Positions 993 to 56,863 of a DNA stretch of 64,000 nt are shown here, in pieces. Made by a program: the position numbers and the translations under genes. The stretch comes from Nitrosospira briensis C-128 (GTDB lineage: Bacteria; Pseudomonadota; Gammaproteobacteria; Burkholderiales; Nitrosomonadaceae), in assembly GCF_000619905.2 (NCBI RefSeq), contig NZ_CP012371.1:2935942-2999941 (forward strand), written 5' to 3'. Each line of letters starts with the position of its first letter. Position 1 is the first letter of the stretch. The notes beneath the pieces were generated by a model. The model was not told the origin of the DNA. It made no database searches and saw only the letters and a list, made by a program, of their open reading frames with translations.

Positions 993-2621
993 TTGCATTC
1001 ATTGGAATTAAAACAAGAATACTCAATTGCTCAATTGCCACAGCTCAATTTCGACACTCTGATCATCGGCAGCGGTCTGGCTGGCCTCACTCTGGCGCTG
1101 AATCTGGCGCAAACCAACAAGGTGGGCCTCATTACCAAACGTGCGCTACTGGACGGCGCCAGTGGGTGGGCGCAGGGGGGGATTGCCGCGGTTTTGTCGG
1201 AGGAAGATTCGCCAGAAGCCCACATAAGGGACACGCTTATCGCAGGCGCGGGACTCTGTAACGAAGCCGTTACGCGATACGTGGTGGAAGAAGGACCCCG
1301 GGCCGTCCAGTGGCTCATCAGCCAAGGCGTTCCGTTCACTCGAAATCAGGGCAGCGGGACCGGGTATCATTTGACCCGGGAGGGCGGTCACAGCGTACGG
1401 CGCGTGATCCACGCGGCGGATGCGACGGGGCAGGCCGTGCAGTTGACCCTGATCGAGAAGGCACGTACCCATCCCAATATCACCGTGCTTGAGCACCATG
1501 TCGCGATCGATCTCATTACCAGCGCGAAACTGGGCCGCGCAGATCATAACGGCAACCGCTGCTATGGCGCCTATGCGCTGGACAGCGCAGCCGGACAGGT
1601 CTACACCATCGGTGCCAATAACACGGTATTGGCGACTGGTGGTGCCGGCAAGGTTTATCTCTACACCACCAATCCCGACACCGCTACCGGCGATGGCATC
1701 GCCATGGGTTGGCGCGCTGGCTGCCGCGTTGCCAATATGGAATTTATCCAGTTCCACCCCACCTGCCTTTATCACCCTCATGCCAAATCATTTCTCATCA
1801 GTGAGGCGGTACGTGGCGAAGGCGGTTTGCTGAAGCTTCCCGATGGCTCGCGGTTCATGCCCTGGCACGATCAACGCGCGGAGCTTGCGCCGCGGGATAT
1901 TGTCGCCCGCGCAATCGATTTCGAAATGAAAAAACGCGGACTCGATTGCGTTTATCTCGATATATCCCACAAGCCGGCCAAATTCCTGAAAGAGCACTTC
2001 CCCAACATTTATAAGCGCTGCCTGGAATTCGGCATCGATATCACCGTGCAACCGATTCCTGTTGTGCCCGCCGCTCACTACACCTGTGGTGGCGTCTTCA
2101 CCGACCGGAAAGGCAAAACCGACATGGATAATCTTTATGCGATCGGCGAAACTGCCCATACCGGTCTGCATGGCGCCAATCGGCTGGCAAGCAACTCGCT
2201 GCTGGAGTGCCTGGTGTTCGGCCAGGCGGCAGCCAATGATATTATCGGGCAGACACCAGCGCCCGCCGTTGAGTTGCCGCAATGGGACGAAAGCCGTGTT
2301 ACCAATGCAGATGAAGAGATCGTCATCTCCCACAATTGGGACGAATTGCGGCGTTTCATGTGGAGCTACGTCGGCATTGTCCGCACTACCAAGCGTCTGC
2401 AACGCGCACAAAATCGAATCGGTCTTCTACATGAAGAAATCAACGAGTATTACGCAAATTTCCGTGTAACCAGCGATCTGCTGGAACTACGCAACCTGGT
2501 GGATACCGCTGACCTTATCGTGCAAAGCGCCATGCTGCGGCATGAGAGCCGTGGTCTGCACTACAGCCGGGATTATCCGGAGCTACTGCCGGAAGCAAAG
2601 GATACGGTAGTAAAGCGGTAG
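993..2621 (+). CDS. nadB: L-aspartate oxidase NadB
   Basis: Flavoenzyme oxidising L-aspartate to iminoaspartate, the first step of de novo NAD synthesis, acting with NadA. The N-terminus carries the FAD dinucleotide fold IIGSGLAGL. Next come the substrate/FAD loop [21 protein letters not shown], the family block EFIQFHPT, and [20 protein letters not shown] near residue 400. The C-terminal helical domain follows, giving 542 residues, the usual length. The start used is TTG at 993, which puts a short leader before the FAD fold; the Shine-Dalgarno is weak, so a TTG at 1002 is possible. It stands alone; nadA and nadC are not in the window. Confidence 0.96.
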
Positions 2622-2761
2622 TGGACCTGCCCCTTTCATTAGCTTCATGACGTAGGATTCTACTGCACCATGTACTAATTACGGGGAGCAGGTCAAACCA
2701 TACTTATCACGGTTATTGTCGTTCTTAAAGTAGCAGAGAGCGCTTAATACAAACGGCTATG

Positions 2762-3115
2762 TCACGCCTCTACCATCACTTCGAATCCACCATAGATCAG
2801 GCGCTTGCCGTCAAATGGCATTGAGTTGGCCTCAGGCTGCATTCGCGGGTCGACCATCACCTTCTTCCAGGCTTCATCGCGCACTTGGCGCGAGGGCCAC
2901 GTCACCCACGAGAACACCACCGTCTCGTCCGCCTGGCACTTGACCGCCATCGGAAAGGACGTCAGCTTGCCCTCAGGCACGTCATTGCCCCAGCACTCGA
3001 CGACGTTCAGCGCGCCGTACTCCTTGAATACTATGGCAGCCTTTGCGGCATGCTCCCGGTAGGTTTCCCGGTTGACCGTAGGCACTGCGACAACGAATCC
3101 ATCAACGTAGTTCAT
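2762..3115 (-). CDS. DUF1428 family protein (YbaA-like)
   Basis: Small soluble protein of 117 residues with the DUF1428 dimeric alpha/beta-barrel pattern: the N-terminus MNYVDGFVVAVP, then ECWGNDVPEG, FSWVTWPSR, and the C-terminal block MPFDGKRLIYGGFE. Members are common in proteobacteria; no catalytic role is established. A good ribosome site (AAGGAG) precedes the ATG. It is not obviously in an operon: the next minus-strand gene starts more than 500 bases away. Confidence 0.9.
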   Translation of the reverse strand: MNYVDGFVVAVPTVNRETYREHAAKAAIVFKEYGALNVVECWGNDVPEGKLTSFPMAVKCQADETVVFSWVTWPSRQVRDEAWKKVMVDPRMQPEANSMPFDGKRLIYGGFEVMVEA

Positions 3116-3295
3116 GATTTATCTCCTTCATGGTTTAAATCGAATCTACACCGACAAAGCCAAAGCAAACCAAAAATAATATCTTGCATTGTTCGTCCCA
3201 GTGTTAGCAAAAGAGAAAGCTTATGCGACACAGGGAATATCAATTGGTTCATTGCCTTAGGCTAGGCCCTGGCGTGGCATAAATAAATATGAATA

Positions 3296-3727
3296 TCAAT
3301 TTCCGCCACAAATCTGTTCAGTATCGATCGAGAACTCGCATGGCTCCGTCTTTCCCATCCAGCGTTCGCGATCCATCGGGCCGGAACAGCCTGCGTCTTC
3401 CAGAAGCGCACGGGTACCGGTCGCATCGCATATGAGCACAACCGAGTGGCGTTCCTGCCGCAGCACCCTGAGCTTATAGCCCCGGAAATTTTCCAGCAGC
3501 ACCGGATCATGTCGGGTGGCGAGTTCCAGCAATTCACTGTCGCCAAGGTCAGGTGGTGGGTTCTTGTAACGCACCGTCGACTCTACCGCAGCCGATAGTT
3601 TTGTCAGTGCAGAGGCTTTGACGTACATTTCCTCACTATCGGGGCCTCGCTGACTGGAGGTGCAGGCCGCCAGGAAACCAATCGTGATCATAACGCCAAT
3701 GGCGTTGGCAACAGTGATTCTGGTCAT
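3296..3727 (-). CDS. Putative lipoprotein coupled to phospholipase-C-like gene
   Basis: Unrecognised protein of about 143 residues. The start chosen is the ATG at 3727, whose bases overlap the stop codon of the upstream gene as ATGA, indicating translational coupling; an in-frame ATG at 3742 would give five extra residues. It has a lipoprotein signal: MTRITVANAIGVMITIGF followed by the lipobox LAAC, so it is probably anchored in a membrane facing the periplasm. The mature part has four further cysteines (VLICDA, DAGCSGP, EPCEFS, EQICGG) that could form disulfides. Function unknown; its coupling suggests work with the phospholipase-C-like protein. Confidence 0.75.
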   Translation of the reverse strand: MTRITVANAIGVMITIGFLAACTSSQRGPDSEEMYVKASALTKLSAAVESTVRYKNPPPDLGDSELLELATRHDPVLLENFRGYKLRVLRQERHSVVLICDATGTRALLEDAGCSGPMDRERWMGKTEPCEFSIDTEQICGGN

Positions 3728-53895: not shown

Positions 53896-55941
53896 TTGGA
53901 TGTAACCCGGTTTATGAAAAACAGAATCGATTCGCGCTTTACTCCTGATTTCCGTGCCGCTGCCGACACGGATGAGCATCCCTGGTACCGATCCCGCAGA
54001 TTCAGCATCTTCGGCCTGGTATTTCTAATCAGCATCGCGATAAGCCTGGCTTATGTTTACAGCCGACCGGCCATTTACGGTAGCGGCGCGACATTGCTGA
54101 CCTCGGCGATGACTGCGATAGACCGTGAAAGCAGCGAGGCGGATATTCAGCATGTCGCTATTCAACGACAGATTTTTCTGCGGCATGAGCTTGCTGCAGA
54201 GACTGTGTCGCGACTCAAGGCTTCGTCAGCAGGCAAGTCTCTGCAACGGCTGACTGCGCCCGATATTCAGAATCTGTTGAATGTCGAACCCATCGCTGAA
54301 ACCAATCTCGTTGAGATAAAGGCAGAAGGACCGGATGCCAAGTTCTTGCCGCTGCTCATTAATACGTGGATAGATGTGTACCTGGATGCGCGGACTGAAG
54401 AAGTCAAAAGATTGACAACCGATACCGAACATATTGTGGAGGACGAGGTAAAGCGCCTGGCTGATAAGGTCAGCTCTACCCGACTGGAATTGGAGGCTTT
54501 CCGAAAGAATCACGATATCTCTTCCACGGAACGTGAAGAAAATGAAGCAGCAGCCCGCCTTAAAGGCCTGAACGATTCTCTCAACAAGGCCAGTGAAGAT
54601 GAAGTGAAGGCGAGGGCCAACCTGAATTCCATCCAGACCGCCATTGCCCGGGGAAAGGCGGTGGTGCCCGATGATGAGAAGGGCAGCCTGGTCGATCTTG
54701 AATCGCGTTTGCAGGACTTGCGCGAAAAGCTGGCGGAACTCGATAAAAAATTTACGCGGGAGTATTTAAATCTGCAACCCGATTTGAAATCCATTCCGGA
54801 ACAAATCAAGGAACTGGAGGCGGCGGTCAATAATAAACGTAAATATGGTGCAAGCGTCGCATTGAATGATGCCGAGATGGCATTTGCGGCCGCACAACAA
54901 ACTGTTAGAGAAATTCGTGCTCAATTGAGCGAGCATAAACGGGAAGCATCGGCATTCACGTCCAAATTTGCTGAGCACGACGCCTTGAAAACCGATCTGG
55001 AAGGTTTGGAGACGCTTTACCGGGACGCGCAGGAGCGGTTGGTGCAAGTCAAAACCGGCCGCAAAGATAAATATCCCCAGGTAACGGTCATTAGCAGGGC
55101 TTTTGAACCGGTGGAACCGCTCAGGCCCAATTATAGCCGGGATGCTTTGATAGCCATTGTGGGCTCACTATTGCTAGGGCTCTTCGGCGTATGGGTTTTC
55201 GAATATTTGGCAACGCAAAAAAAAGAACAACAGCCGCTTGTTGCGGTTTTTGGCGTGCAGGGACATCCGGCTCCCGCTGCCCCATTAATCGAACATCCTC
55301 ATGCCGCGCTGGGCACCGTGGCGGGTCAGCTGGGGCAAAAAACAAACAATGCCCTGGCAGGTCCGGGGTGCCGGGAGCTTTCCAGTCATCAGTTAAGAAT
55401 TTTGCTCAACGCTGCCAATCTAAAGGGAAAACAACTGATTGGCTTATTGCTCAGCGGATTGACCATCGACGAAGCTGCATCATTGACGCCGGACCAGATC
55501 GATCCGGATGCCGCAGCCATCAATCTTGCAGGAAGGTCGCCCAGAGTCATTCCTCTAAGCAATCCCATTAAATCGTCGCTCATGCAGTCAGGAGGTCATC
55601 CGGTATGGAACCCGGATGACCCAGGGACGCACATCGATCTTTCCGCCGCATTAGTCTGTGCAGCAGTCGATTCGGGTTTACCTGACCCCCAGCAAATTAC
55701 CGCCGAAGCGATCCGGCATAGCTATATTGCTTACCTTGTACGCCAAGGTCTGCGACTAGCGGATCTCGAGCAGGTCACGGGCTATCTGGAGCCTTCGGTC
55801 ATTTCCAGCTACAGCGCGTATTCACCGCCGCAACAAGGCCGGGATATTTACGAGATTGAGCTGCTTCACCCTGCGTTGATGACAATGTCGGGCGAAGCCC
55901 GACCTACAAACCAGCAAGGAGGAACTTATCCTCGAGGATAA
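53896..55941 (+). CDS. Wzz/GumC-like polysaccharide co-polymerase fused to a tyrosine-recombinase-like domain
   Basis: 681 residues. Residues 1-440 form a chain-length determinant: membrane helix 36-56, periplasmic long coiled coil (about 165-390), the Pro-rich end VEPLRPNYSR, and a second helix at about 415-437. A cytoplasmic linker leads to residues 496-650, which resemble the catalytic domain of tyrosine recombinases: GLLLSGLTIDEAASLTPDQID, ITAEAIRHSYIAYLV and GYLEPSVISSYSAYSP. Arg607-His608 and Tyr639 align with the second Arg, His and nucleophile; the first Arg is Thr523 and the GH His is Tyr630. No kinase domain as in Wzc. Last residues are coded by a REP-like palindrome. An ATG at 53914 is an alternative start. 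Confidence 0.82.
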   Translation: MDVTRFMKNRIDSRFTPDFRAAADTDEHPWYRSRRFSIFGLVFLISIAISLAYVYSRPAIYGSGATLLTSAMTAIDRESSEADIQHVAIQRQIFLRHELAAETVSRLKASSAGKSLQRLTAPDIQNLLNVEPIAETNLVEIKAEGPDAKFLPLLINTWIDVYLDARTEEVKRLTTDTEHIVEDEVKRLADKVSSTRLELEAFRKNHDISSTEREENEAAARLKGLNDSLNKASEDEVKARANLNSIQTAIARGKAVVPDDEKGSLVDLESRLQDLREKLAELDKKFTREYLNLQPDLKSIPEQIKELEAAVNNKRKYGASVALNDAEMAFAAAQQTVREIRAQLSEHKREASAFTSKFAEHDALKTDLEGLETLYRDAQERLVQVKTGRKDKYPQVTVISRAFEPVEPLRPNYSRDALIAIVGSLLLGLFGVWVFEYLATQKKEQQPLVAVFGVQGHPAPAAPLIEHPHAALGTVAGQLGQKTNNALAGPGCRELSSHQLRILLNAANLKGKQLIGLLLSGLTIDEAASLTPDQIDPDAAAINLAGRSPRVIPLSNPIKSSLMQSGGHPVWNPDDPGTHIDLSAALVCAAVDSGLPDPQQITAEAIRHSYIAYLVRQGLRLADLEQVTGYLEPSVISSYSAYSPPQQGRDIYEIELLHPALMTMSGEARPTNQQGGTYPRG

Positions 55942-56307: not shown

Positions 56308-56661
56308 TCAGGCCACCGTAACTGCCCCATGGTCATCGCAATGACCATCATGCGGATGATGAAGGTGGCCATCGACCAGATAATCGATATGCTTGCCATG
56401 TGGCACGGCTTCATGACCGCAGCCAGGCCCATGTACATGTCCTTGCGCATGGCCTGCGCATTGATGTTCGGGCGTGCAACTTTCCGGATTGGCCGTGGTT
56501 ATGTCTATCACATGCTCATCGATATGGCTGCCGTGCGGGTGATGCAGATGCCCGTCATGCAGGTAATCGACGTGCCCGTTGTGCACGATACCTGTATGAC
56601 CACATTCCGGACCATGCGGATGAGTATGATTTTCATGCTGTGGCAGGATACAATTGGTCAT
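56308..56661 (-). CDS. Histidine-rich metal-binding repeat protein
   Basis: About 117 residues, roughly a quarter of them His. Two copies of a ~36-residue unit: HPHGPECGHTGIVHNGHVDY then LHDGHLHHPHGSH, and HVHGPGCGHEAVPHGKHIDY then LVDGHLHHPHDGH. Each has a Cys in GP-CGH. No signal peptide, so probably a cytoplasmic store or chaperone for zinc, nickel or copper. The start at 56661 follows GGAGGAG. Convergent with the Wzz-like gene and divergent from homospermidine synthase. Confidence 0.82.
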   Translation of the reverse strand: MTNCILPQHENHTHPHGPECGHTGIVHNGHVDYLHDGHLHHPHGSHIDEHVIDITTANPESCTPEHQCAGHAQGHVHGPGCGHEAVPHGKHIDYLVDGHLHHPHDGHCDDHGAVTVA

Positions 56662-56863
56662 TTTGCCGCTCTCCTCCAAAAGAAATACGAAGCGCTAAAA
56701 TATCAATTTGACCCAATCTGCGACGTGCAGTTCCTGCTGGGCCGGGCAATAAGGCAAAACAGGGCCAAAGCGAGCGCGCGCGATTGGGATTTTGTTTGGT
56801 CGGTTATCGAGTTTGTCCAATGGGAAATGTTTGCCCAGCAGGAGCCAACGAAAGAGGGAGAAT

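Follow-up and report, generated by a model that had tools for sequence, protein, structure and literature searches.

The 64,000-nucleotide stretch of Nitrosospira briensis C-128 analysed here, hereafter the window (contig NZ_CP012371.1, positions 2,935,942 to 2,999,941 of the forward strand), carries at 53896..55941 on the plus strand an open frame for a polysaccharide co-polymerase fused to a tyrosine-recombinase-like domain, hereafter the tail. We consider it probable that the protein is a co-polymerase of type 2 (PCP-2) in which the cytoplasmic kinase has been replaced by a retired recombinase domain, now put to use in protein interaction or ring assembly. Each part is known by itself; their combination, as judged from sequence and predicted structure, appears to be new among co-polymerases, and no description of such a fusion was found among the titles and abstract starts listed in searches of the open literature, outside of which most subscription journals lie.

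The tail spans residues 488–662 (55357..55881; residues are numbered throughout from the TTG codon at 53896). Taken singly, its sequence provides weak evidence for a recombinase domain: the Pfam model Phage_integrase (PF00589) matched at E = 0.011–0.016, below the gathering cut-off, the NCBIfam model recomb_XerA_Arch at 3.2e-4, and the PDB entry 4a8e at 0.0027. For the family as a whole, a 44-row alignment of the tail was built from the window and 43 of the 51 fused loci described below, and a 42-row full-length alignment from the window and 41 of them, the others being dropped as near-copies. In hmmsearch, the 44-row profile matched 3nkh at 1.8e-9 in two stretches and 4a8e at 9.7e-9 across the entire domain, and 40 of the 44 aligned members matched PF00589 at E ≤ 0.1, with a best value of 8.7e-9. 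AlphaFold modelled residues 488–662 with a predicted local distance difference test score (pLDDT) of 90.9 and a predicted template modelling score (pTM) of 0.85. When this model was compared with known structures using Foldseek, the best 50 of the 188 matches at E ≤ 10 were tyrosine recombinases or the phage proteins MrpR/YopR and SroF, the last being presumably a tyrosine-recombinase relative, given its place in the list; 22 of the matches listed were at E ≤ 0.001. The top match was XerA (5hxy; 6.8e-6, probability 1.00, template modelling score (TM) 0.65 by query length). With the 44 aligned rows, the evidence is decisive for a predicted tyrosine-recombinase catalytic domain, and both the catalytic-domain fold and the homology to PF00589 place the tail, by fold, in the tyrosine recombinase superfamily. 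The sequence-only reading of this DNA had proposed such a domain and named Thr523, Glu604, Arg607, His608, Tyr630 and Tyr639, all of which are found where it placed them; the structure prediction agrees with the proposal, as does the phage_integrase search, weakly for the window protein alone and far more clearly for its family. A search with the tail profile (E ≤ 0.001) in three genomes for a free-standing ancestor returned only the fused gene and one recombinase, a 325-residue frame in genome G024 (4.8e-6); no close donor was found.

The N-terminal part of the protein, some 440 residues, had been described as a two-helix polysaccharide co-polymerase, and the evidence taken together upholds this description. 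Hydropathy reveals two hydrophobic segments, near residues 33–60 and 414–440, and in the model the corresponding transmembrane helices lie on either side of a large helical region, as is characteristic of PCP-2 proteins. Homology to the Wzz/Wzc/GumC group emerges from three kinds of comparison. The top NCBIfam models were pepcterm_ChnLen, a chain length determinant of the XrtA system (1.5e-15), and EpsF (1.1e-13), both scoring far under their curated cut-offs; no Wzz model from Pfam matched the window protein at E ≤ 10. The 42-row family profile matched the solved structure of Wzc (1.3e-8, profile positions 254–515) as well as the XerA-like 4a8e (8.1e-9, positions 472–646), the former match overlapping the start of the latter. 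Foldseek comparison of the full-length model recovered Wzc (1.1e-9), WzzE and KpsE (8tsh), and also XerA. TIGR01005 aligned only across the co-polymerase part (131–470 of 754), and no kinase model was listed in the Pfam and NCBIfam scans of the window protein, so the Walker-motif kinase domain that Wzc carries on the cytoplasmic side is not seen.

The layout of the fused protein is as follows. The plus-strand frame encodes 681 residues from TTG 53896 or 675 residues from ATG 53914, of which the ATG is the likelier start; no obvious ribosome site was seen in the sequence upstream of the TTG, and the similarity of more distant relatives starts only near residues 25–30. The first transmembrane helix comprises approximately residues 33–57 (53992..54066) by hydropathy and is a helix at positions 28–50 of the model, in which residue 1 corresponds to residue 7 of our numbering. 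It is followed by the presumably periplasmic co-polymerase region with its long coiled-coil helices (54067..55134), a proline-rich EPVEPLRPN stretch, and the second transmembrane helix at approximately residues 414–440 (55135..55215), which is recognizable in the hydropathy, the sequence and the model. A linker of residues 441–487 (55216..55356), predicted to be disordered (pLDDT about 31–32 in the full model) and, by topology, probably cytoplasmic, leads to the tail. The full-length model has a mean pLDDT of 78.1 and a pTM of only 0.37, because of which the relative positions of its domains are meaningless and overall TM-scores are low.

We compared the active-site residues of 87 family domains (84 different sequences, some genomes being represented twice) with those of 23 aligned PF00589 domains from three genomes: that of the window, another of its family, and one methanotroph. 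The comparators are 23 of 36 matches; fragments, frames with stops, the fused gene, rows without a locus, and L152, a neighbour in rank of L146, were excluded. The first catalytic arginine, replaced by Thr523 in the window (55462..55464), is present in none of the 87 family rows but in all 23 comparators, and the histidine of the HxxR motif in none of the family rows but in 22 comparators. At the His/Trp position, the expected residues occur in 10 of 87 rows as against 22 of 23. The second arginine, Arg607 of the Arg607–His608 motif (55714..55719), is retained in 79 family rows and all comparators, and the nucleophilic tyrosine, Tyr639 (55810..55812), in 78 family rows (phenylalanine in 6, cysteine in 2, leucine in 1) and 22 comparators; its conservation, which the sequence-only reading had singled out for checking, is thus common, not invariant. 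The full R-H-R-H/W-Y set is found in 21 of the 23 comparators, whereas no family row has more than three of the five residues. In the column of the hairpin lysine, 14 of 23 comparators have K, which is absent from the eight commonest symbols of the family. Other columns are virtually invariant within the family, with G521 and G629 in 87/87 rows and E526 and R550 in 85/87. The N-terminal core-binding domain is absent from the model, in which the tail is preceded by the membrane helix and the disordered linker.

From these residues, the tail should not be an active recombinase, and the earlier suggestion of a dead enzyme extends to the whole family. That the protein is instead a membrane-anchored recombinase, active or conditionally active, or some other DNA-joining enzyme, is highly improbable: Arg607 and Tyr639 persist in about 90% of the family, but the first arginine and the HxxR histidine are missing from all 87 rows, the domains are mostly acidic, and the core-binding domain is lacking.

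The charge of the tail bears on a further possibility, that it has kept DNA binding but not cleavage and serves to hold a chromosomal site at the membrane or to couple glycan export with gene expression. Family tails have a median isoelectric point (pI) of 4.89 and a net charge of −6, as compared with 9.51 and +4 for the comparators; the pI of the window tail is 5.17. This separation of acidic from basic domains is strong, albeit not absolute, because 9 of the 87 tails have a pI above 7 and 3 of the 23 comparators lie below it (20 above), so charge alone is not decisive. A retired recombinase fold that retained DNA binding does exist in MrpR of phage SPbeta, a repressor that is reported to have lost recombinase function (PMC10516654) and is among the Foldseek matches listed, and the retention of Arg607 and Tyr639 would also fit a DNA-binding tail. 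The acidity nonetheless argues against DNA binding, as do the family-wide loss of the first arginine and of the HxxR histidine, the rarity of the hairpin lysine, and the missing core-binding domain. With the residues for DNA cleavage lost and those for DNA binding most likely lost as well, we regard a DNA-binding tail as improbable. The sequence-only reading had left the choice between DNA and a protein partner; we favour protein contacts, because the tail is without most catalytic and phosphate-binding residues and, for the most part, without the positive charge of ordinary domains.

The fusion is widespread. Of the 24 genomes in the window's family besides its own, 22 were found by protein search to carry the full-length gene; the two genomes without it are, respectively, 80% complete and 1.6 Mb in size. 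Eight of these family alignments contain one stop codon; in L007, L008 and L013, where it could be placed, the stop sits at the very end of the aligned region. The named collection yielded 53 loci, distributed over Nitrosospira, Nitrosovibrio, Nitrosomonas, methanotrophs (Methylobacter, Methylomicrobium, Methylotuvimicrobium, including L041 of the Methylotuvimicrobium buryatense 5G line, Methylomonas, Methylicorpusculum and animal symbionts) and metagenome-assembled genomes (MAGs) labelled only Gammaproteobacteria, Methylococcaceae or Burkholderiales; the closest match, at 94%, is that of Nitrosospira sp. Nsp11. The fused gene is uninterrupted in one frame in 51 of these 53 loci, the other two being L070, which is cut by a contig end, and L067, which has two tail-less genes. 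The 56 rows extracted for further analysis comprise L001, L012, L016–L018 and 51 of the 53 loci L021–L073 (without L067 and L070); as only plus strands were scanned, any minus-strand loci in the range L002–L020 are not represented. An artefact, either a frameshift that joined two genes or a chance resemblance, might have been suspected from the Pfam score of the single sequence; given the uninterrupted fusion in the named loci and in further genomes, together with the fold prediction, we attach next to no probability to it, and the frameshift that would have undone the sequence-only reading is not seen.

In broader samples, the gene turned up in 6 of 369 genomes for the class and in 3 of 398 for the phylum, both counts including the window's own genome and G024. 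In the Methylococcales, 77 of 201 genomes match at E ≤ 1e-30. The match reaches the tail in 60 of them, including G486, where it is in two pieces, and G542, where a stop codon interrupts the co-polymerase part, and it stops before the tail in 17. A divergent carrier, G924, has the tail (1.1e-32). A link to ammonia or methane monooxygenase was rejected as a rule in the sampled Methylococcales, where PF04744 is found in 69 of 77 carriers and 107 of 124 non-carriers; the carriers G095, G131 and G354 lack it.

Phylogenetic trees of the two parts agree in uniting the Nitrosospira sequences (8 rows) in one clade and those of Nitrosomonas (15 rows, L057 and L071 being counted here from their shared neighbours) in another. 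In both trees, two Methylobacter sequences group with Nitrosospira at 100%, apart from Nitrosomonas. Several deeper branches are unsettled or discordant between the trees, and the tail tree carries a long-branch warning. By these trees, the fusion has spread as one unit; a single fusion, followed at least once by whole-gene transfer between methanotrophs and nitrifiers, is the simplest account.

Both parts of the protein are conserved by selection. For ten close pairs, the ratio of nonsynonymous to synonymous substitution rates (dN/dS) is 0.06–0.15 in the co-polymerase part and 0.04–0.27 in the tail, taken as the last 175 residues (less 20 for the window) with an approximate border. The tail value exceeds that of the co-polymerase part in 9 of the 10 pairs, and in 7 of the pairs dN is higher for the linker than for either of the other parts. 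By this measure, the tail is under purifying selection and slightly less constrained than the rest.

Co-polymerase genes usually, though not by strict definition, belong to polysaccharide gene clusters, a setting that is seen in part in some methanotrophs. Among the Methylococcales, an MsbA-like ABC exporter is encoded directly downstream of the fused gene and on the same strand in 11 of the 17 genomes of families f153 and f202 whose flanks were read, and these exporters are 60–100% identical to the one in L166; the two that were scanned score well under the MsbA cut-off and combine membrane and ATPase parts in one chain. Of the six other genomes, four belong to genus g302 and encode, near the fused gene, a protein that combines GH17-like and GT2 (cellulose-synthase-like) parts, accompanied in three of the four by a separate GH17-like gene; G463 has only the PHP-domain gene that elsewhere comes after the exporter, and G430 has neither exporter nor PHP-domain gene. 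L050 and L069 likewise have a GH17-like gene upstream of the fused gene; Pfam scores the GH17 similarity slightly below its cut-off. The exporter and GH17/GT2 contexts suggest, through distant relatives only, a role in glycan assembly or export. We also note that in L166–L168, L170 and L172 the fused gene is followed by the MsbA-like exporter and then by a PHP-domain phosphatase gene.

In the window itself, the neighbours are a gene for a LigB-type dioxygenase, a His-rich small frame and a saccharopine-dehydrogenase-like gene. The His-rich frame (56308-56679, minus strand, 123 aa) contains repeated motifs such as HVDYLHDGHLHHPH and looks metal-binding; Pfam gave no match to it at 1e-5. The segment 59295-59710 has several open frames that overlap one another on the two strands, and pieces of it recur at about 81% identity in two places on the Nitrosospira contig L032 and in none of the other loci searched; this segment may be a dispersed repeat.

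Several observations weigh against a retired recombinase domain working in a glycan-export co-polymerase. The 42-row profile also matched a designed coiled coil (7.5e-5), because of which its score against Wzc may partly reflect coiled-coil composition, and the overall confidence of the full-length model is low. The roughly 90% retention of Arg607 and Tyr639 is not fully explained by plain structural reuse. No glycan genes are among the window's neighbours, and no glycan cluster was seen in the ammonia-oxidiser flanks inspected by eye and by clustering; no neighbour common to several clades was seen except for broad families such as ABC ATPases. What ties the protein to polysaccharide is consequently its co-polymerase half, along with the evidence from distant relatives. 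A GT2 gene of TIGR04283 lies at most about 450 bases downstream in some 11 distinct methanotroph loci, an adjacency that says little about polysaccharide because arsenosugar gave the family its name. A search for the GH17-like protein in 14 genomes, namely 12 carriers and the gene-less G002 and G023, came back empty, while the same query matched 119 of 201 Methylococcales; GH17 was rejected as an obligate partner on account of those 12 carriers. Finally, the tail is dispensable in some lineages, because 15 of the 17 tail-less Methylococcales matches lie in the methanotroph genus g298 (which includes L109–L114), and L067, a gammaproteobacterial MAG, has two complete tail-less co-polymerase genes in tandem (362-1849 and 1866-3362).

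This dispensability, together with the higher dN/dS of the tail in nearly all pairs, speaks for the tail being a passive leftover of an accidental fusion, retained only so that the co-polymerase folds or stays stable. We find this unlikely: the tail is under purifying selection, its near-invariant G521, E526, R550 and G629 persist across the family, and it has been retained in both nitrifiers and methanotrophs. No tail was found at E ≤ 1 in the 8–10 kb around the gene in six of the 15 g298 genomes, and ten other carriers of the genus have it, making loss within part of g298 the simplest account; the remaining two tail-less matches, in G566 and G408, lie near contig ends.

We therefore return to the replacement of the kinase by a retired recombinase domain and outline how such a protein could work. 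The N-terminal part would form a ring in the inner membrane and, like known co-polymerases, contribute to assembling or exporting a glycan of the cell surface. On its flexible linker, the tail would hang in the cytoplasm at the position of the Wzc kinase and could offer a surface for ring assembly or for the docking of a partner such as a glycosyltransferase, a polymerase or an ABC exporter. In Cre and Xer structures, the subunits form a closed ring in which the C-terminal segment of one docks on the next. As a more speculative extension, which we hold only tentatively and consider doubtful, the head-to-tail ring inherited from the recombinase ancestor might build and gate the cytoplasmic ring of the co-polymerase without phosphorylation, as the Wzc kinase ring does with it. 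Were this so, ammonia and methane oxidisers would share a glycan export machine of which a DNA-recombination module is now a structural element. The cytoplasmic control of kinase-less co-polymerases is poorly understood; the question becomes testable with a domain that is conserved, is not a kinase, has a known fold and occupies the kinase position, and that natural variants in one genus lack. More generally, in nitrifiers and methanotrophs, both of environmental importance, the fold of a DNA enzyme has apparently left work on DNA and become tied to the membrane.

Finally, we compared the fused protein with known systems. It shares with Wzc and other PCP-2a proteins the two transmembrane helices, the periplasmic coiled coil and a C-terminal domain past the second helix, in line with the profile and fold matches. 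In contrast to Wzc, whose cytoplasmic domain is a tyrosine kinase, it has a recombinase fold and no kinase match. EpsF and the XrtA-system chain length determinants (TIGR03017, TIGR03007) are the top NCBIfam matches of its N-terminal half, but the window protein scores well under their cut-offs, and neither model (444 and 498 positions) extends its match beyond residue 454. Elsewhere in the window's genome lies a separate, shorter and more distant co-polymerase relative (G000:C1:2001004-2001972), a 494-residue frame that matches in the co-polymerase part only, and such a second relative is also present in most genomes of the family. KpsE, a PCP-3 protein, resembles the window protein in the Foldseek match and works with an ABC exporter, KpsMT, much as some relatives of the window gene stand directly before an exporter gene. 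To our knowledge, KpsE has no recombinase-like tail, and the neighbouring exporter of these relatives is a one-chain MsbA-like protein, unlike the two-chain KpsMT. With XerA, XerC, XerD and the phage integrases of PF00589, the tail shares the catalytic-domain fold and the motif spacing; unlike them, it has lost the catalytic set, is mostly acidic, lacks a core-binding domain and is fused to a membrane protein. MrpR/YopR, as described in PMC10516654, is a precedent for the reuse of a retired tyrosine recombinase, but one in which DNA binding was kept, whereas the window tail is a catalytic domain only, mostly acidic and tied to the membrane.
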